Assembly: GCA_002869895.2 (NCBI GenBank)
Contig: NEWP02000021.1
Location: 248,783 to 287,380 of the forward strand
DNA from: Nitrospira sp. CG24E
Lineage (GTDB): Bacteria; Nitrospirota; Nitrospiria; Nitrospirales; Nitrospiraceae
Reading direction: 5' to 3'
Length of the DNA: 38,598 bases
Made by a program: the position numbers and the translations under genes. Each line of letters starts with the position of its first letter. The first letter of the stretch is position 1. Of this stretch, positions 214 through 22,160 are shown piece by piece. Under the pieces are notes generated by a model. That model was not told the DNA's origin, did not search any database, and worked only from the letters and a program-made list of their open reading frames with translations.

Positions 214-825
214 ATGATCGCGATCATCGACTACGGCATGGGCAATCTCCGCAGTGTCTCCAAAGCCTTCGAGGCGGTGGGACATCAGGCGACGGTGACA
301 CGTGACCCGCGTGTGATTGGAAATGCGAGTCATGTGGTGTTACCGGGCGTCGGGGCCTTTGGGGACTGTATGGCCAACGTTGATCGCTATGGGCTGGCGG
401 AACCGATTCGCACGGCGATTCAATCGGGAAAACCATTTTTGGGAATCTGTTTGGGGCTCCAATTATTGTTCGAGGAGAGTGAGGAATTTGGGGCCCACAA
501 GGGGCTCGGGATCATTCCCGGAAAAGTCAAACGCTTCGCCATCGATCAGAGCCTAAAGGTGCCGCACATGGGGTGGAACAGGGTCTCACTTGAGCGGCGC
601 TGTCCCCTGTTCGATGGGATTCCCAACGAGTCGTACTGGTACTTTGTGCATTCATTCTATGTCGACCCCTCCGACAAGGCCGTTGCAGCAACGACGACGG
701 ATTATGGGGCGACGTTTGTGTCGAGTATTTGGCGGGATAATGTGGTGGCCTGTCAGTTCCATCCCGAAAAGAGCCAGGCCGTCGGGTTGCAGTTGGTCAA
801 AAATTTTGGATCCTGGCTTGGATAG
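214..825 (+). CDS. hisH: Imidazole glycerol phosphate synthase, glutaminase subunit HisH
   Basis: HisH hydrolyses glutamine and passes ammonia to HisF, which makes imidazole glycerol phosphate and AICAR in histidine biosynthesis (cytoplasm). The 203-residue product is a class I glutamine amidotransferase. The nucleophile is Cys79 in GKPFLGICLGLQ, the other triad residues are His183 and Glu185 in QFHPEKSQ, and the oxyanion segment is LPGVGAFGD. The frame is open upstream to 94, but ATG at 214 has an AGGA ribosome site seven bases before it and gives the usual MIAIIDYGMGN start. It leads a same-strand his cluster with hisA, hisF and hisIE; the partner hisF is about 1.6 kb downstream. The 5' region is a dispersed repeat, and no clear promoter was seen. 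Confidence 0.97.
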   Translation: MIAIIDYGMGNLRSVSKAFEAVGHQATVTRDPRVIGNASHVVLPGVGAFGDCMANVDRYGLAEPIRTAIQSGKPFLGICLGLQLLFEESEEFGAHKGLGIIPGKVKRFAIDQSLKVPHMGWNRVSLERRCPLFDGIPNESYWYFVHSFYVDPSDKAVAATTTDYGATFVSSIWRDNVVACQFHPEKSQAVGLQLVKNFGSWLG

Positions 826-12801: not shown

Positions 12802-13225
12802 GGAGAAGACCGGGTGATCGCTTGGAGCGGTAACGCTTTAAGAGGAAAGTCCGGACTTCATGGGCAGGGCGCTGGATAATTCCCAGGCGGAGCGATCCGA
12901 CACCAGCACCACAGAAAACAAACCGCCGATGGCCAAGACGACGGGATTCCAATCCGGTCGCCTTGGATCAGGTAAGGGTGAAACGGTGGGGTAAAAGCCC
13001 ACCGCGGTGGTGGCGACATCACCGGCAGGGTAAGCGTCGCCCGATGCAAGGCCAAATAGGAAGACATCAGTCGGCTTTCTTCGGAGAGTCGGCGACCGGC
13101 TGGCCCGGCCGAGGTCTTCGGGTAGGTCGCTTGAGGTTCGAGGCAACTCGAATCCCAGAGAAATGATCATCCCCGTTTGGGAGAAAATCCTAGATGGGAC
13201 AGAATCCGGCTTATAGGTCTTCTCC
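12802..13225 (+). ncRNA. rnpB: RNase P RNA (bacterial class A)
   Basis: This is the catalytic RNA that trims tRNA 5' leaders. The two universally conserved blocks of the P4 core are visible: GAGGAAAGTCCGGACT near 12841 and ACAGAATCCGGCTTAT near 13199. The ends pair as the P1 helix, with GGAGAAGACC at 12802-12811 and GGTCTTCTCC at 13216-13225. The internal GGTAAGGGTGAAACGGTGG segment is also typical. The length of about 424 bases fits class A. A T7 tract at 13233-13239 follows the terminal helix and may end transcription. The last 59 bases are antisense to the 3' end of the thioredoxin-fold gene. Confidence 0.96.
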
Positions 13226-13475
13226 ACCGCGCTTTTTTTATCGCGTGACGTAGTTCTCCTTCCGTCACCGCCCCTACAAAATGTTCAACCCCGTCTAGCA
13301 AGACGACGGGAATTCGCGCCCCATAGCGTTCCATCAAGACTTTGTCGTTATCGATAGACACCTTTTGTACTTCTACGTGCAATTCTGACTGAAGACGTCG
13401 CGCGATTTGGTAGACGATTTCGCAGAGATGGCAGTCATTACGAGAGAGGATGGTCACACGGATAGGTAGATCCAT
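13167..13475 (-). CDS. Glutaredoxin-like thioredoxin-fold protein
   Basis: The 102-residue protein is a small thioredoxin-fold domain (DUF836/glutaredoxin-like). It has the redox pair Cys15-His-Leu-Cys18 after the first strand (IRVTILSRNDCHLCE), a KVSIDNDKVLMERYG segment, and the cis-proline loop ARIPVVLLDG. It is probably cytoplasmic; its substrate is unknown. A lysine/arginine-rich C-terminal tail (from about residue 80) is encoded across the rnpB T-tract and the last 59 bases of rnpB on the opposite strand. The start ATG 13475 has no strong ribosome site. Confidence 0.85.
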   Translation of the reverse strand: MDLPIRVTILSRNDCHLCEIVYQIARRLQSELHVEVQKVSIDNDKVLMERYGARIPVVLLDGVEHFVGAVTEGELRHAIKKARWRRPISRILSHLGFSPKRG

Positions 13476-13568
13476 GGAGCTGTAACCCGCGACAGCGAAC
13501 TTGGATGGTAGAGAGTATCACGCAGGGGGCAGGCTGTCAGGGAGGGAAGCTTCCGGATCCTTCCACTA

Positions 13569-13598
13569 TTGACGTGTTGAAACGCGCGGTGATAGGAT
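13569..13598 (+). promoter_or_regulatory. Possible promoter of the ilvB operon
   Basis: TTGACG (13569-13574) with TAGGAT (13593-13598) 18 bases later gives a moderate sigma-70 match. The resulting leader of about 135 bases holds a small hairpin (CCCGGT 13692-13697, ACCGGG 13704-13709) without a T-tract. No T-box motif or leader peptide rich in Leu/Ile/Val codons was found here. Confidence 0.4.
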
Positions 13599-13740
13599 TA
13601 CATGTCTTTCTCCCTGATTTTTCAGAATGTTCTGATGAAATGTCTCTGTTGAGTCTGCTCCCTCAGGACGAAAGACGGGGTAGTGTATTATCCCGGTTCC
13701 CCTACCGGGGGGTGCCGGTGGTATGGATGGAGGTTCTGTC

Positions 13741-15516
13741 ATGAAACTCACAGGCGCAGAGATTCTCCTCGAATGCCTCAAGCGGGAAGGCGTCAAGACG
13801 ATTTTTGCGCTTCCCGGAGGTGTCGTACTAAAGATTTTCGACATACTTCATCAGCAGAAGGACATTGACGTGGTCCTCACTCGCCATGAGCAGGGCGCCG
13901 GCCATATGGCAGAAGGTTATGCGAAGGCGACCGGTAAAGCTGGTGTCTGTCTTGTGACTTCTGGACCAGGCATGACGAACGTCATCACGGCCTTAGCGGA
14001 TGCCTACATGGATTCTGTGCCATTGGTCTGTTTCAGCGGACAAGTCCCTACCAGCCTTATCGGGAATGATGCATTCCAAGAGGCAGACAATGTCGGCTTG
14101 AGCCGTCCCTGCACCAAGTACAATTTTCTTGTGAAAAATGTGGCAGAGTTGGCAACCACGATCAAGGAAGCTTTCTACATTGCGACAACGGGGCGTCCAG
14201 GCCCTGTGCTCGTGGATATTCCGAAGGACGTTTCCATGGATAAGGCGGAATTTACCTATCCGAGTTCCGTCTCTATCCGTAGCTACAATCCGGTGTATGA
14301 AGGAAATAAGTGGCAAATCAAGCAAGCAGCTGAGGCCATGACGAAGGCGAAGAAGCCGATACTCTACGTCGGCGGCGGCGTCGTCTTTTCCGGCGCATCG
14401 CAGGAATTATTGGAGTTGGCTGAACTGACTCATATGCCGGTCGATATGACATTAATGGGCCTTGGCGCTTTCCCCGGCGAGCATCCGCAATCTCTGGGCA
14501 TGTTGGGGATGCATGGAACCTATTGGGCCAATATGGCGATGCACTACTCCGACCTCGTCATCGCCATCGGTGCGCGATTCGACGATCGGGTGACCGGAAA
14601 GGTCTCTGAATTTTGTCCCCACGCGAAGGTGATCCACATTGATATCGATCCAACCTCGATTCGAAAGAACGTGAATGTCGATATTCCGATCGTCGGCGAT
14701 TGTAAGACTGTGCTTCGTGAGTTGCTCCAGATTCTTCGTGCCACGGTCAACGGCGATCAGAGGGAGCTCCGTAAGTCTTGGTGGAATCAAATCCATGAGT
14801 GGCAACAGGCCAATCCTCTGACCTATCAACAGGAGTCGGATGGGCCGATCAAGCCGCAATATGTCATCAGTCGGCTCTATGAACTCACGAAGGATCGAGA
14901 CCCCATCGTTTCAACCGATGTCGGGCAGCACCAGATGTGGGCGGCCCAGTACTTTAAACTGGCGAAGGCGAATCGCTGGTTGACCTCGGGAGGACTTGGA
15001 ACCATGGGTTTCGGGTTTCCCGCTGCGATGGGAGCGCAGGCTGCGTTTCCGGGTCGTCTGGTCCTCTGCATCGCTGGCGACGGCAGTATCCAGATGAATA
15101 TGCAAGAAATGGCGACGGCAGTGGTGCACAAGTTGCCGGTCAAGATTATCATCCTCAATAACCGCTTCCACGGGATGGTCCGGCAATGGCAGGACCTCTT
15201 TTACGAAGGCCGGTATGCATCGAGTTATCTGGAGACGACGCCGGATTTTGTGAAGTTGGCTGAGGCATACGGAGCGGTCGGACTCAGGGCCAGCAAGCCA
15301 ACGGAGATCGATGCTGTCCTTAAAGAGGCGATTGCGGTGAACAAACCGGTGATTGTCGATGTCCCGACATATCCGTATGAAAATGTCTATCCGATGATTC
15401 CAGCCGGCGGCTGCAATCATGAGATGATTTTGGAAGATCCACCGGCCTTGAAGAGTAAGCAGATTGGAGCGGGGCAGGTGGCTCCGAAAGATTCAGACAC
15501 GATCCTCACGGCCTAA
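13741..15516 (+). CDS. ilvB: Acetolactate synthase large subunit
   Basis: The ThDP- and FAD-dependent enzyme condenses pyruvate with pyruvate or 2-oxobutyrate, the first common step to Val/Leu and Ile. The 591-residue product has the N-terminal pyrimidine-binding domain with catalytic Glu in VVLTRHEQGAGHMAEGYA, and a central FAD-binding domain. The C-terminal pyrophosphate domain carries the ThDP motif starting GDGSIQMNMQEMATA and ending IILNN. ATG 13741 was chosen over the in-frame ATG 13723 because GGAGG lies seven bases upstream and it gives MKLTGAEILLECL. It heads the ilvB-ilvN-ilvC-psd-pssA run. Confidence 0.98.
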   Translation: MKLTGAEILLECLKREGVKTIFALPGGVVLKIFDILHQQKDIDVVLTRHEQGAGHMAEGYAKATGKAGVCLVTSGPGMTNVITALADAYMDSVPLVCFSGQVPTSLIGNDAFQEADNVGLSRPCTKYNFLVKNVAELATTIKEAFYIATTGRPGPVLVDIPKDVSMDKAEFTYPSSVSIRSYNPVYEGNKWQIKQAAEAMTKAKKPILYVGGGVVFSGASQELLELAELTHMPVDMTLMGLGAFPGEHPQSLGMLGMHGTYWANMAMHYSDLVIAIGARFDDRVTGKVSEFCPHAKVIHIDIDPTSIRKNVNVDIPIVGDCKTVLRELLQILRATVNGDQRELRKSWWNQIHEWQQANPLTYQQESDGPIKPQYVISRLYELTKDRDPIVSTDVGQHQMWAAQYFKLAKANRWLTSGGLGTMGFGFPAAMGAQAAFPGRLVLCIAGDGSIQMNMQEMATAVVHKLPVKIIILNNRFHGMVRQWQDLFYEGRYASSYLETTPDFVKLAEAYGAVGLRASKPTEIDAVLKEAIAVNKPVIVDVPTYPYENVYPMIPAGGCNHEMILEDPPALKSKQIGAGQVAPKDSDTILTA

Positions 15517-15545
15517 CCGCCTTGATTCAGGAGTATGCACTTGGT

Positions 15546-16064
15546 ATGGAACACATTATTTCAGTGACCGTGGAGAATAAGTTTGGGTCGTTGTCTCGTG
15601 TCGCCGGCCTGTTTAGCGGTCGGGGGTTCAATATCGAAAGCCTCTCCGTGGCGCCGACGCTTGACCCTTCCATGTCGCAGATGACCATCGTCACGTCCGG
15701 AGATGAACGGATCATCGAGCAGATCGTGAAACAGCTCAATAAACTCATCGATGTTATCAAGGTCGTAGATCTGAACGAGAGCGACTTTGTCTCGCGGGAG
15801 ACCGCGCTCATCAAGGTGCATACGCGGCCGGAAGATCGCGCAGAGGCGTTGCGGATTGCCGATATTTTCCGAGCCAACGTCATCGACTCCACGCCGGCGA
15901 CCTATACGATCGAGGTGACGGGAGATCCACGAAAAATCGAAGCGATCATCAACCTGCTACAGCCTCTAGGAATCAAAGAACTCACCCGTACTGGGCGAGT
16001 TGCGGTTGCTCGCGAATCGATTCGATCGACAGGTATGCAGGCGAAAAAAATTGCCCGCGAATAG
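15546..16064 (+). CDS. ilvN: Acetolactate synthase small (regulatory) subunit
   Basis: The regulatory subunit binds valine and activates IlvB. The 172-residue product has an N-terminal ACT domain (MEHIISVTVENKFGSLSRVA, GLFSGRGFNIESL) and the C-terminal IlvN domain (about residues 80-165). ATG 15546 gives the standard start. It is 12 bases after AGGAG, slightly long, and an in-frame TTG at 15522 cannot be excluded. It follows ilvB after a short gap, so the holoenzyme subunits are co-expressed. Confidence 0.96.
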   Translation: MEHIISVTVENKFGSLSRVAGLFSGRGFNIESLSVAPTLDPSMSQMTIVTSGDERIIEQIVKQLNKLIDVIKVVDLNESDFVSRETALIKVHTRPEDRAEALRIADIFRANVIDSTPATYTIEVTGDPRKIEAIINLLQPLGIKELTRTGRVAVARESIRSTGMQAKKIARE

Positions 16065-17147
<1,083 letters not shown>

Positions 17148-17160
17148 GGTTGAGGAATCT

Positions 17161-17811
17161 GTGGCAGATCGTGCCGTCGGCATCCCGTTTGCCAAAGAAG
17201 GAATTCCCTTCATCGGGGCTGCTGTTGGCGTTACACTGCTGGCAGGATGGCTCGGCTGGATTATCGTAGCCATCGGAGCGGTGATTCTGACGCTCTTTGT
17301 CTCCTGGTTCTTTCGCAATCCACCTCGGGTGGTGCCGCAGGGGCCTCGTCTTGTACTGGCGCCCGGTGACGGGAAAGTCATTGCCATCGAAGAGGAGTTT
17401 GAACCACGATTCATTAAGGACCGCTGCATTCGACTCACGATTTTCTTGAATGTGTTCGATGTGCATATTAATCGGATCCCCTGTGAAGGAGTCGTTGAGG
17501 ACATTCAGTATCAGCCGGGCTTATTCCTCGTGGCCAGCAAGCCGGATGCGACTTTGAGGAACGAGCAAAATGCCTTGATGATTCGGACGGTGCAGGGTAC
17601 CAAGGTGTTGTGTGTGCAGGTAGCCGGGTTGATTGCCAGACGGATTGTCTGTTGGATCTCTTCGGGAGATCGAGCCGTATGCGGTGAACGTTTCGGTTTG
17701 ATTCGATTCGGGTCACGGATGGACACCTTTCTTCCTATCGGAACGGCAGTAAAAGTTGCAGTCGGCGATCGAGTCAAGGGTGGAGAGACCATCGTGGGGG
17801 AATTGCCATGA
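17161..17811 (+). CDS. psd: Phosphatidylserine decarboxylase (short, archaeal-like type)
   Basis: Psd converts phosphatidylserine to phosphatidylethanolamine at the membrane. The 216-residue proenzyme has an N-terminal membrane segment (about 16-50, ending in WFFRNPPR), a conserved FDVHINRIP motif (His102), and the self-cleavage site Gly184-Ser185 in IRFGSRMD. Cleavage there would create the pyruvoyl group. The short length and FGSRMD rather than LGST place it in the type II/archaeal-like subgroup. It starts with GTG and overlaps pssA by four bases, so the two phospholipid steps are coupled. It shares the transcript with ilvBNC, a linkage seen in many bacteria. Confidence 0.94.
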   Translation: MADRAVGIPFAKEGIPFIGAAVGVTLLAGWLGWIIVAIGAVILTLFVSWFFRNPPRVVPQGPRLVLAPGDGKVIAIEEEFEPRFIKDRCIRLTIFLNVFDVHINRIPCEGVVEDIQYQPGLFLVASKPDATLRNEQNALMIRTVQGTKVLCVQVAGLIARRIVCWISSGDRAVCGERFGLIRFGSRMDTFLPIGTAVKVAVGDRVKGGETIVGELP

Positions 17812-18614
17812 AAACCACGGGACTTCGTCAATCGTTTGCAAGAGGTGGGAAACGGCGCAAAGCCGCCATGCACCTGATTCCGAATCTTTTTACGACAGGG
17901 AATCTCTTGTGCGGGGTATTTTCGATGTTGTCCGTGTTCAATGCGGACTATATGGTCGCGGCGGTCGCCATTCTGGTGGCGATGGTCTTCGACGTGCTCG
18001 ATGGAAAGTCGGCGCGGTTGACGAACAGCACTAGCCATTTCGGCTTTGAGTACGACTCTTTGTCCGACGTGGTGTCGTTCGGGGTCGCTCCAGGCCTCTT
18101 GATCTATTCCTGGGCGCTAAGCGGACAAGGTATGTTCGGCATGGCGGTGATGTTCGCCTACGTGGCGATGGGTGCGGTTCGGCTGGCTCGATTTAATTCG
18201 ACTGCAGCCGTGGCGGACGGCAAATACTTTACTGGGTTGGCGATTCCTGCAGCGGCAGGGGTCGTGGCGTCGCTGGTGATCTTCGACCACTATAGCGTCA
18301 GGATTGGAACGGAAGTAAAGCCTATTCTCGTGCTGATCATTACGCTGACCCTTTCGTTCTTGATGGTGAGCACCATCAAGTACCGAAGCTTTAAGGACAT
18401 GAAGTTTCGCGGAGGGCAGCACATTACCTATCTGGTATGGGGAATCTTGGCGCTCATGCTTATCGCCGCCTGGCCTCAAGTGATGCTTTTTGTCGTCTTT
18501 GCCGGGTATGCCTTGCTCGGTCCGGCAGAGCGGCTTGTCGGACTTCTGTTTAAGGTAGTTGGGAAACGTCCGTCGCCTAAGACCGAGCAGTCGGTGAGTG
18601 AATCAAAGTTCTAG
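17808..18614 (+). CDS. pssA: CDP-diacylglycerol-serine O-phosphatidyltransferase
   Basis: PssA makes phosphatidylserine from CDP-diacylglycerol and serine in the inner membrane, supplying the substrate of the upstream Psd. The 268-residue multi-spanning protein has the complete CDP-alcohol phosphotransferase signature D65-G-x2-A-R70-x8-G79-x3-D83-x3-D87. A preceding IPNLFTTGNLLCG segment typifies bacterial PssA. About seven to eight hydrophobic segments follow. Its ATG overlaps the psd stop (ATGA). The T-box leader of leuA begins directly after its stop. Confidence 0.96.
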   Translation: MKTTGLRQSFARGGKRRKAAMHLIPNLFTTGNLLCGVFSMLSVFNADYMVAAVAILVAMVFDVLDGKSARLTNSTSHFGFEYDSLSDVVSFGVAPGLLIYSWALSGQGMFGMAVMFAYVAMGAVRLARFNSTAAVADGKYFTGLAIPAAAGVVASLVIFDHYSVRIGTEVKPILVLIITLTLSFLMVSTIKYRSFKDMKFRGGQHITYLVWGILALMLIAAWPQVMLFVVFAGYALLGPAERLVGLLFKVVGKRPSPKTEQSVSESKF

Positions 18615-18868
18615 TGGCTTCGACGAGGAGTAGTACGCGATTCGTACAGAAGAGAGAGCTGGTGTATGGTGCAAACCAGCCTGTGCGGCGCCGAACTCGC
18701 CTCTGAGCCAGAGTCCGTGAAACCCGAGTAATGGATTCCGCCTCGCCCCCGTGAAGGGCGTAATGAAGGGCTGTGGGCAGCGCAGGTTGTTCATGGCTAG
18801 ATCAGGGTGGTACCACGGAGCTTGTTACAAGCCTCCGTCCCTGGGCGTAGGGATGGAGGCTTTTTTTA
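18615..18868 (+). promoter_or_regulatory. T-box riboswitch leader of leuA (tRNA-Leu sensing)
   Basis: This leader carries the hallmarks of a T-box. A GAGGAGTAGTA S-turn element lies in the 5' part of Stem I (about 18625-18635). A distal stem has the GGTGCAAACCAGC loop. The conserved T-box sequence AGGGTGGTACCACG (18804-18817) has a TGGT that can pair with the ACCA end of an uncharged tRNA. A terminator follows. A candidate specifier codon CTC (Leu) is at 18696-18698 in CCGAACTCGCC. Uncharged tRNA-Leu should stabilise the antiterminator (ACGGAG with CTCCGT, AGGG with CCCT) and allow leuA transcription. The specifier assignment is inference. Confidence 0.93.
18832..18867 (+). terminator. T-box intrinsic terminator
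   Basis: An 11-bp perfect stem, CCTCCGTCCCT (18832-18842) with AGGGATGGAGG (18849-18859), has a 6-base loop and is followed by C and seven T. Its 5' strand is the part that would be taken by the antiterminator. Confidence 0.93.
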
Positions 18869-18886
18869 TTTGAGATTGCTGAAAAT

Positions 18887-19014
18887 GCTTTCCCGCAGCG
18901 CTCTCGGTCGCGTGCCTCCCTGCGACGTACCCATCGGTGACAGAGCTGTCTTGGCAGCTCGGGGTGGGTGGGTGAGAAACGGTACGCCTCAGTCATCCCG
19001 CTTCCTGCGGCCTT
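18887..19014 (-). repeat. Dispersed intergenic repeat, copy 2
   Basis: This is the inverted counterpart of the repeat at 1-142. It occupies most of the spacer between the T-box terminator and the leuA ribosome site, ending about 50 bases before the start codon. The core is 18944-18979. No reading frame is convincing inside it, and no target-site duplication is obvious. Confidence 0.7.
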
Positions 19015-19062
19015 GCTGGAAAGACATTTTGAGGAATCTCACTCAATACGAGAGGTGAAACC

Positions 19063-20610
19063 ATGACACGGATGATCAAGATTTTCGATACGACCTTGCG
19101 TGATGGGGAGCAATCTCCAGGGGCCAGCATGAATGTGGAAGAGAAAATCATGGTGGCGAAGCAGCTGGCGCGTTTGGGCGTCGATATTATCGAAGCCGGA
19201 TTTGCCTATAGTTCGCCAGGAGATTTTGCAGCGGTACAGCGGATCGCGCAGGAAGTCGAGGGACCGACGATTTGCAGTTTGGCACGAGCGCGTCCGGAGG
19301 ATATCGAACGAGCCTGGGAGGCATTGAAAGGAGCCCCGAAGGTCCGTATCCATACGTTTCTTTCGACGTCCGACATCCACTTGAAACATCAGTTCAGAAT
19401 GACGCGGGATGAGGCGAAGAAACGAGCGGTCGAGATGGTGCAACTGGCGAGAGGGTATGTCGACGACGTGGAGTTTTCGCCTATGGATGCCAGTCGCTCC
19501 GATCCCAGCTACCTCTATGAGGTGATCGAGGCGGTGATTGCCGCTGGAGCCGGAACGATCAATATTCCCGACACGGTCGGCTATGCAGTGCCACAAGAAT
19601 TCGGGAGACTCATTCGTGAAATTCTCGAGCGGGTGCCAAACAGCACGAGGGCGGTAATCTCCGTCCATTGCCACAACGATCTCGGCCTCGCGGTGGGAAA
19701 CAGTTTGGCGGCGGTGTTTGAAGGGGCCGGCCAAGTCGAATGCACGATTAACGGAATTGGTGAACGGGCAGGGAACACGGCGCTGGAAGAAGTGGTCATG
19801 GGCCTACGGACTAGGAAAGACTTCTATCAAGCCGACACGAAGATTCGTACTGAAGAGATTTCGAAGACCAGTCGATTGGTGAGCAAGATCACCGGTATGG
19901 TGGTGCAGCCGAACAAGGCAATCGTCGGGGCCAATGCCTTCGCCCATACCTCCGGGATTCACCAAGACGGGTTGCTGAAGGATAAGACGACTTATGAAAT
20001 CATGCGGCCGGAGACGGTTGGCCTGCTTGAAAGCAAGATGATCATGGGGAAACTATCGGGCCGGCACGCGTTTCGTCAGCGGCTGGTGGAGTTGGGATAT
20101 ATGCTCTCGGACGAGGAGGTAAATCATGCCTTCGAACGGTTCAAGAAATTGGCCGATCAGAAAAAGGAAATCTACGAAGAGGACCTCGAAGTGATTGTTT
20201 CCGAAGAGTTGGCCAAAATGCCCGATCGGATTTCGCTGAAGTCATTCCATGTAGCCAGTGGGACGGATCAGGTGCCGACCGCTACGGTCGAACTCGAAAT
20301 AGACGGACGAACGATTGCGCAGACAGGGACAGGCGATGGACCGGTAGATGCGGTCTATCGGACGATTGCGGCAATGACGGAGACAAAGAGCACTCTCCTC
20401 ATGTATGTCGTCAAGGCAATTACCGGTGGAACCGATGCGCAGGGCGAAGTTTCTGTTCGGGTTCAGGAAGATGGACGCACCGTTTCAGGCCATGGCGCCG
20501 ATACGGATATCATCACGGCGTCGGCGCGCGCCTATCTCAATGCGCTGAACAAGTTGTTGTACTTGGCGGGGAAACAGGCGCAGGGCGAGCAGAAGGTGAA
20601 CTTGATTTAA
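19063..20610 (+). CDS. leuA: 2-isopropylmalate synthase
   Basis: LeuA condenses acetyl-CoA with 2-oxoisovalerate, the committed step of leucine synthesis. The 515-residue product has the TIM-barrel opening [17 protein letters not shown] with metal-binding Asp, and the second metal motif [17 protein letters not shown]. The NGIGERAGN loop follows, then a C-terminal leucine-feedback domain (about residues 390-515). The ATG at 19063 has a GAGG seven bases upstream. Expression is expected to be controlled by the T-box leader before it, while the regulatory domain would allow leucine inhibition of the enzyme. Confidence 0.98.
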
Positions 20611-20664
20611 GGAAAGTGGCCACGGTAGAGTCACCAGCTCAGGCCTAGAGTTGGGAAGGTATCG

Positions 20665-21045
20665 TTGACTGTGAGGTGCTCCGTGGTTCATGTCACCGTG
20701 GGAGATCGAGCGGAGTTTCTAGCCGGCGACCATACCGTCCTTCGAGAGCTGCTGCATCCGGCAAGACAATCCCTTGCGCTTGGGTATAGTGTGGCGCATG
20801 GGACATTAGCTCCCGGCAATCGGTCGAAATGGCACAGGCTCACATCCTCAGAGGTTTACTATATTCTTGCCGGTCGGGGACACTTGACTGTAGACGACTC
20901 GGTCATCGCTGTGAATCCAGGCTCTGTTGTCTATGTGCCCCCAGGAAGCAAACAGTCTCTGGAAAACAATGGGCCCATTGCCATTGAGTTCCTCTGCCTG
21001 GTTGATCCCGCTTGGCGGCTAGAGGATGAAGAAGTCTTGGAATAG
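20665..21045 (+). CDS. Small cupin-domain protein with degenerate metal site
   Basis: The 126-residue protein is a single cupin barrel. Motif 1 is [20 protein letters not shown]: the first His and the Glu are present, but the second His of the usual HxH is Leu. Motif 2 is [16 protein letters not shown], where the His expected after PxG is Gln. Two of four typical metal ligands are therefore absent, so a binding role is more likely than catalysis (inference). The start may be TTG 20665 (GGAAGG five bases before) or GTG 20671. It lies between leuA and leuB on the same strand; the substrate is unknown. Confidence 0.85.
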
Positions 21046-21086
21046 AGGTTTCGGCGGTTATCACCTGCAAAGAGGGAGAGTGGTCT

Positions 21087-22160
21087 GTGAAGGCGAAGAT
21101 TGCCGTATTGGCTGGTGATGGAGTGGGTCGGGAGATCGTTCCGGAAGCCGTGAAGGTGCTGAAAGCCGTAGCCGAGAAGTTCCAGCACAGGTTTGAATTC
21201 TTTTCCGGTGATGTGGGCGGGCAGGCGATTGACTCAGTGGGTGTCCCGCTTCCTCAGGAGACACTGAGCCTGGCCAAACAGAGCGATGCGGTCTTGCTCG
21301 GTGCGGTCGGTGGACCCAAGTGGGAAGGGTTGAAGTATGACTTGCGTCCGGAACGCGCGTTGTTGGGATTGCGCGAACACCTGGGTCTCTATGCGAATTT
21401 ACGGCCGGCGAAATTGTATCCGATGTTGTCCGATGCCTCGACGCTGAAACGAGAGGTGATTGAAGGGATCGACATCCTCGTCATTCGTGAACTGACCGGC
21501 GGCATCTATTTCGGAAAACCCAAAGGCATCGAGAAGCTACCGAGCGGGAGCGAACGGGGCATCAATACCGAGGTCTATACCACTGAAGAAATCCAACGCA
21601 TTGCAAAAGTCGCGTTCGATGCGGCAAGAAAGCGTCGAAAGAAAGTGATGTCCGTCGACAAAGCGAACGTGCTGGAGTCATCGGAGCTTTGGCGCCGTGT
21701 CGTCACCGATGTCCATAAGGGCTATCCGGATGTGGAGTTGAGCCATATCTACGTAGACAATGCGGCGATGCAACTCGTGCGTAACCCGCGGCAGTTCGAC
21801 GTGATGCTCTGTAATAATATATTCGGCGACATTTTGAGCGATGAAGCTGCGATGTTGACCGGGTCCATCGGGATGTTGCCGTCGGCCAGTATCGGAGCGC
21901 AGGTGGGACTATTCGAGCCGATCCACGGCAGCGCACCGGATATCGCGGGGAAGAATGTGGCGAATCCAATCGCGACGATTGCCTCAGTTGCCATGATGTT
22001 GTCCTACGCATTCAAGTTGGATAGGGAAGCAGCAGCCATCGAGCAGGCGATTGTGAAGACCCTTGAACTCGGCTATCGTACGAAAGATATTCAGAGTCCT
22101 GGTACTCGGCTAGTCACGACAACAGAAATGGGTGAGGCCATCCTGCAAAATCTGAACTAG
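21087..22160 (+). CDS. leuB: 3-isopropylmalate dehydrogenase
   Basis: LeuB oxidises 3-isopropylmalate with NAD and magnesium in leucine synthesis. The 357-residue product matches the family: [18 protein letters not shown] at the N-terminus, the substrate arginines in [33 protein letters not shown], the catalytic Lys in VDKANVLE, the metal-binding aspartates in [12 protein letters not shown], and the nucleotide-binding [13 protein letters not shown]. The start is GTG 21087. leuC and leuD are not in the window, so isopropylmalate isomerase must be encoded elsewhere. Confidence 0.97.

Follow-up and report, generated by a model that had tools for sequence, protein, structure and literature searches.

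A leucine T-box leader at the pssA-leuA junction of a Nitrospira operon and its distribution in the Nitrospirota

A complete T-box leader in the pssA-leuA interval

A complete T-box leader was found between pssA and leuA of a Nitrospirota genome, at positions 18611-18867 of the window (the whole 38,598-nucleotide stretch of Nitrospira sp. CG24E DNA that was analysed). We regard it with high confidence as a class I (transcription-attenuating) T-box specific for tRNA-Leu(GAG), which would gate leuA, a cupin gene and leuB after ilvBNC-psd-pssA. An earlier note on this DNA had proposed a T-box controlling leuA; the covariance model, the covariation, the leucine specifier and the cognate tRNA all speak for this. 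The element is a genuine, standard leucine T-box of the type known from Geobacter; the new points are its apparently vertical spread through the Nitrospirota and its tight placement inside an operon.

A permissive cmscan search matched the full length of the RF00230 model (1-219) to positions 18611-18845 of the plus strand with 84.6 bits and E 7.7e-19, a significant match though below the Rfam gathering cut-off of 93 bits, which is a curation threshold and not a biological feature. Because the window sequence scores below this cut-off, the T-box was missed by the Rfam scan at the default gathering threshold, which did not list it. Orthologues at the same junction pass the 93-bit cut-off, one of them congeneric, and 58 of the 197 genomes of the order reach or exceed it, including the same-genus genome G032 (93.1 bits). 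The window T-box was the only one detected in the 3.45 Mb assembly by the RF00230 search.

All the hallmark parts named in the earlier note (AGTAGTA, T-box sequence, CUC specifier and a paired terminator with T7) were present, all on the plus strand. Stem I (18616-18709; covariance-model alignment, with pair counts for helices 1-5) comprises a basal helix, the AGTAGTA element (18629-18635), the AGAGAGC...GGTG apical region and the specifier strand, on which the alignment of relatives places the codon CUC at 18696-18698 in the context GAA-CUC-G-CC. Stem II (18711-18738), the Stem IIA/B pseudoknot region (18739-18759) and Stem III (18769-18798) were delimited by pair counts. The T-box sequence AGGGTGGTACCACG (18804-18817) lies within the T-box and antiterminator region (18804-18842; relatives and pair counts), where the bulge UGGU (18808-18811) is complementary to tRNA ACCA. 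The intrinsic terminator with its T7 tail (18829-18867), recognized by pairing and covariation, has positions 18829-18842 in common with the antiterminator; its stem (18829-18862) is paired at all positions, one of the pairs being G-U, and seven T come after it. It was the strongest terminator-like site in 13150-21200, with 15 stem pairs as scored and 10 or fewer in any other. The leader thus shares with class I of RF00230 the full-length match, specifier, T-box sequence, antiterminator and terminator, and differs in scoring 84.6 bits against the 93-bit cut-off.

Covariation and the two rival hairpins

Sixty-one distinct T-boxes of the window's family were aligned, and pairs were counted for a structure drawn up on the basis of the Rfam alignment and the window sequence. 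Paired cells amounted to 91.1%; shuffling the columns gave 82.9%, and sliding the partners by 1-3 columns gave 35-46%; the shuffles leave relatedness in, and the slid-partner controls are the weightier ones. Changes on both sides were seen in 32 of the 58 pairs, the covariation score was 0.330 versus 0.182 in shuffles (none of 500 reached the observed value), and compensatory changes occupied 334 cells versus the 106 expected from shuffles. These compensatory cells, together with the occurrence of matches in 131 of the 197 genomes of the order, establish that the window T-box is not a chance match.

The middle and apical helices of Stem I, Stem II (six pairs, five with both-side changes; 99.5% of cells paired) and Stem III (13 pairs, 10 with both-side changes) had good covariation support. 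About six sequences were misaligned at their 5' ends, which lowered the scores of helices 1-3 in basal Stem I. Stem IIA was 99.2% paired and nearly invariant, and Stem IIB was 70.8% paired; this poor support for Stem IIB and the score under the gathering cut-off are among the points against our explanation.

The antiterminator helices were paired in 99.5-100% of cells and the terminator in 96.3%. One antiterminator pair appeared as GC in 24, AU in 23 and GU in 14 of the 61 T-boxes. Its partner column takes part in the terminator as well and varies together with its partner in each hairpin (24 sequences have G-C-G, 14 have A-U-A, and those beyond these triples have one or two G-U pairs). Such a three-way covarying column is the expected trace of a switch between two rival hairpins.

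Leucine specificity

The specifier was CUC in 58 of the 61 aligned relatives and CUG in three, none reading an amino acid other than leucine; a significant covariance-model hit and a leucine codon were both found, the reverse of the two outcomes that the earlier note had set against its proposal. The bulge was UGGU in all 61. A single tRNA-Leu(GAG) is encoded in the genome; it ends in ACCA, with discriminator A73 complementary to the UGGU bulge. Since the leucine tRNAs tag, cag and caa of this genome also carry A73, the specifier alone separates the leucine isoacceptors. CUC is also the specifier of Firmicutes leucine T-boxes and accounts for 74% of the leucine T-boxes in TBDB (PMC7778990); unlike those of the Firmicutes, the window's T-box belongs to a Gram-negative phylum, is the only one in its genome and lies within an operon, downstream of lipid genes.

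The three CUG specifiers (L015, L020 and L130, in genomes G121, G086 and G160) run contrary to the preferred third-position C. Loss of tRNA-Leu(GAG) was considered for them and rejected, as G086 and G121 retain both the GAG and CAG isoacceptors.

Operon position and proposed mechanism

The placement downstream of ilvBNC-psd-pssA given in the earlier note was confirmed by NCBIfam gene identities, all on the plus strand: ilvB (13723-15516), ilvN (15522-16064), ilvC (16077-17147), psd (17161-17811) and pssA (17808-18614, stop TAG at 18612-18614; TIGR00473 over cut-off, CDP-OH_P_transf). The regulated gene leuA (19063-20610; TIGR00973 over cut-off, PF08502) retains its allosteric LeuA_dimer domain, and is followed by a cupin-domain gene (20665-21045; Pfam) and leuB (21087-22160; NCBIfam). 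The ilvB-ilvN-ilvC-psd order is conserved in relatives, and these four genes presumably form the upstream part of the T-box/leuA transcription unit; the leuA-cupin-leuB order is retained in many Nitrospiraceae, and the cupin gene and leuB are probably co-transcribed with leuA.

Only 1 nt separates the pssA stop from the first Stem I pair in the window, and the gap was at most about 8 nt in 47 of 72 Nitrospiraceae loci and 50-170 nt in some others of the family. No consensus sigma-70-like promoter was found on the plus strand from 15152 to the T-box, in a scan that is weak in this phylum and whose count equalled the shuffled expectation; the same weak scan, with its total count at the shuffled expectation, gave a consensus promoter-like site at 13569-13598, upstream of ilvB. 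As the earlier note had it, there is no strong terminator between pssA and the T-box, nor was any found upstream of the T-box within 13150-21200. Because both a consensus promoter from 15152 to the T-box and a strong upstream terminator are missing, the best reading is that read-through from ilvBNC-psd-pssA is most likely under the control of the T-box as a gate. The earlier note had suggested such gating as a possibility; the 1-nt gap, the lack of a promoter-like site and the presence of the only strong terminator lend it support, and it is still something that we infer from sequence.

Two other features were observed near ilvB. A class A RNase P RNA (RF00010, 293.8 bits) occupies positions 12802-13229, immediately ahead of the ilvB leader region, and a short open reading frame, MSFSLIFQNVLMKCLC (13602-13652), upstream of ilvB, encodes several branched-chain residues without a clear adjoining attenuator.

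The main competing explanation, which we consider unlikely though deserving of attention, is that the T-box is functional and owes most of its transcription to a promoter of its own within pssA, with no gating of operon read-through; a non-consensus promoter there could drive leuA alone. Room for a promoter exists in the Desulfuromonadales, where the median distance from pssA to the T-box is about 110 nt (range 20-190 in 34 loci among the matches listed by a pattern scan, nearly all non-Nitrospirota), and in those Nitrospiraceae with gaps of 50-170 nt. The Nitrospiraceae T-box, however, usually abuts the pssA stop, as it does in the window, where no sigma-70-like site was seen, and the fourfold-degenerate sites at the pssA 3' end, examined for a hidden promoter, lacked extra conservation within the genus.

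Under read-through gating, transcription would start mainly at a promoter upstream of ilvB, and RNA polymerase leaving ilvBNC-psd-pssA would enter the leader directly. With tRNA-Leu charged, the terminator at 18829-18862 would form and transcription would stop before leuA. Uncharged tRNA-Leu(GAG) would pair through its anticodon with CUC in Stem I and through its ACCA with the UGGU bulge, and the tRNA-bound leader would adopt the antiterminator, with transcription of leuA, the cupin gene and leuB. A shortage of leucine would thereby open the leucine-specific branch of a unit whose upstream part makes membrane lipid and the precursor shared by valine and leucine. That the T-box has instead decayed and lost its response to tRNA, its hairpin being merely an operon terminator or polarity element, is highly improbable: the score below the Rfam cut-off would fit decay, but congeners exceed that cut-off, every major stem has compensatory changes, the UGGU is invariant and the family's specifiers are all for leucine.

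Distribution and inheritance

Matches to RF00230 were found in 131 of the 197 genomes of the order, all of them within the window's family, the Nitrospiraceae. Five members of the family gave no match; leuA was cut at a contig end in three and had no match in two. All the readable Nitrospiraceae loci carried the T-box at the pssA-leuA junction. A search of the phylum added matches in 15 genomes of five other families, so that the comparison of leuA leaders across the Nitrospirota proposed in the earlier note placed the T-box at the same junction in the Nitrospiraceae and in deeper families. The order psd-pssA-[T-box]-leuA was seen in nearly every matching locus.

Three further matches were dismissed. 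A second T-box in G181:C132 (L027, about 258-523, minus strand) is a different T-box on a short contig that is possibly contamination; it precedes a gene that, judged by eye, resembles ileS (isoleucyl-tRNA synthetase). The two matches in G145 represent one broken T-box, with the pssA and leuA sides on different contigs. A second T-box in G185:C115 (L096), at a second pssA-leuA junction, was weaker (48.8 bits) and without a canonical core, and is either a duplicate strain contig or a decayed copy.

A pattern scan of named genomes yielded at least 118 stretches, at least 64 of them with leuA within 800 nt. The matches listed were mainly from Desulfuromonadales, and also from Omnitrophota and Hinthialibacterota; among them, the Desulfuromonadales mostly had the psd-pssA-[T-box]-leuA order where the locus extended far enough, the same junction as in the Nitrospirota. 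The leuA T-boxes of Geobacter and Pelobacter have already been published (PMC2494555, PMC2700814); like the window's element, they lie upstream of leuA with tRNA-Leu(GAG) as the predicted effector. The Nitrospirota leaders differ from these in that the bulge is mostly followed by ACCACG rather than ACCGCG. The description of T-boxes in the earlier note as mostly a Firmicutes device needs qualifying, given that leuA T-boxes are widespread at this junction in Desulfuromonadales and Nitrospirota. A search confined to published papers, with tbdb.io and the Rfam species lists outside it, brought up no earlier description of a leuA T-box from the Nitrospirota.

In the LeuA tree the Nitrospirota sequences were grouped (SH-aLRT 80), with the T-box lineages at the base of the group. 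On this account vertical inheritance of the leuA T-box within the Nitrospirota is favoured, with moderate support, together with its loss or replacement in three families of the same order (f2, f3 and f4). The leucine T-box would thus reach a further Gram-negative phylum, where it would be an old and apparently vertical trait instead of a recent acquisition from Firmicutes.

A possible sensor exchange in sister families

Families f2, f3 and f4 retain psd-pssA-leuA, and no T-box remnants were detected in them at E values up to 10. In f2 there was a plain terminator-like hairpin or almost no pssA-leuA interval. In the f3 genera g22 and g26 the interval contained a small open reading frame such as MDQWQGKGRAPLLLGDATLTLASLLKIAVTP, adjoining a terminator and including three adjacent leucine codons in synonymous variants (CTT CTT TTA, CTT CTC TTA, CTC CTT TTA and CTC CTC CTA). 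The LLL run followed by a terminator was noted at L280, L293, L298, L299 and L300 (g22) and L278 (g26), and was absent from L282, L295, L296 and L303. A run of three leucines would arise by chance within 31 codons with a probability of about 0.03; hence its conservation, not its presence, is the argument for a leader peptide. In g22 a strand just past the stop of the reading frame, ACCCCGAA, can pair with the terminator loop and 3' half, as in a simple ribosome-mediated attenuator. The junction in these two genera therefore likely carries a predicted leucine leader-peptide attenuator in place of the T-box.

Leucine-rich leader-peptide attenuators (for example in S. aureus, PMC5794164) perform the same regulatory task, but they sense a stalled ribosome and not the tRNA directly. 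That such attenuation controls leuA in the window too, as it apparently does in f3 with its Leu-rich small reading frames and terminators, is hardly credible, since Stem I begins 1 nt past the pssA stop, leaving no room there for a reading frame with leucine codons (these were seen in f3 only), and the T-box fold, with its covariation, takes up the entire interval.

We tentatively suggest, as a possible history, that the Nitrospiraceae T-box is a promoterless internal valve splitting a branched-chain/lipid operon, and that f3 swapped the tRNA sensor for a leucine leader peptide at the pssA-leuA junction, perhaps keeping the ancestral terminator. Exchange between T-boxes and leader peptides has been described in general (PMC2965389), so what is gained would be a clear-cut instance of a principle already known. 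A single operon junction offers a natural series (T-box, leader peptide, plain hairpin, nothing) for tracing sensor exchange, and the features of most interest are how closely the T-box is joined to the pssA end and the putative exchange in the sister family.

The spacer between the terminator and leuA

The spacer that follows the terminator (18868-19050, plus strand) lies outside the T-box. It is a palindromic sequence of about 180-190 nt with 33 partial matches elsewhere in the genome, folds into one long hairpin (z -3.3) and is probably a REP/MITE-like dispersed repeat. A second riboswitch in this spacer was considered and rejected, because the sequence is a dispersed repeat with 33 partial copies. 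The length of the spacer varied widely in relatives; at L082 (G104) an insert of about 1.1 kb, with a run of N, separated the T-box terminator from leuA. This insert, which may be an assembly join, included an open reading frame whose product resembles a repeat-rich (photosystem II stability factor-like) protein.
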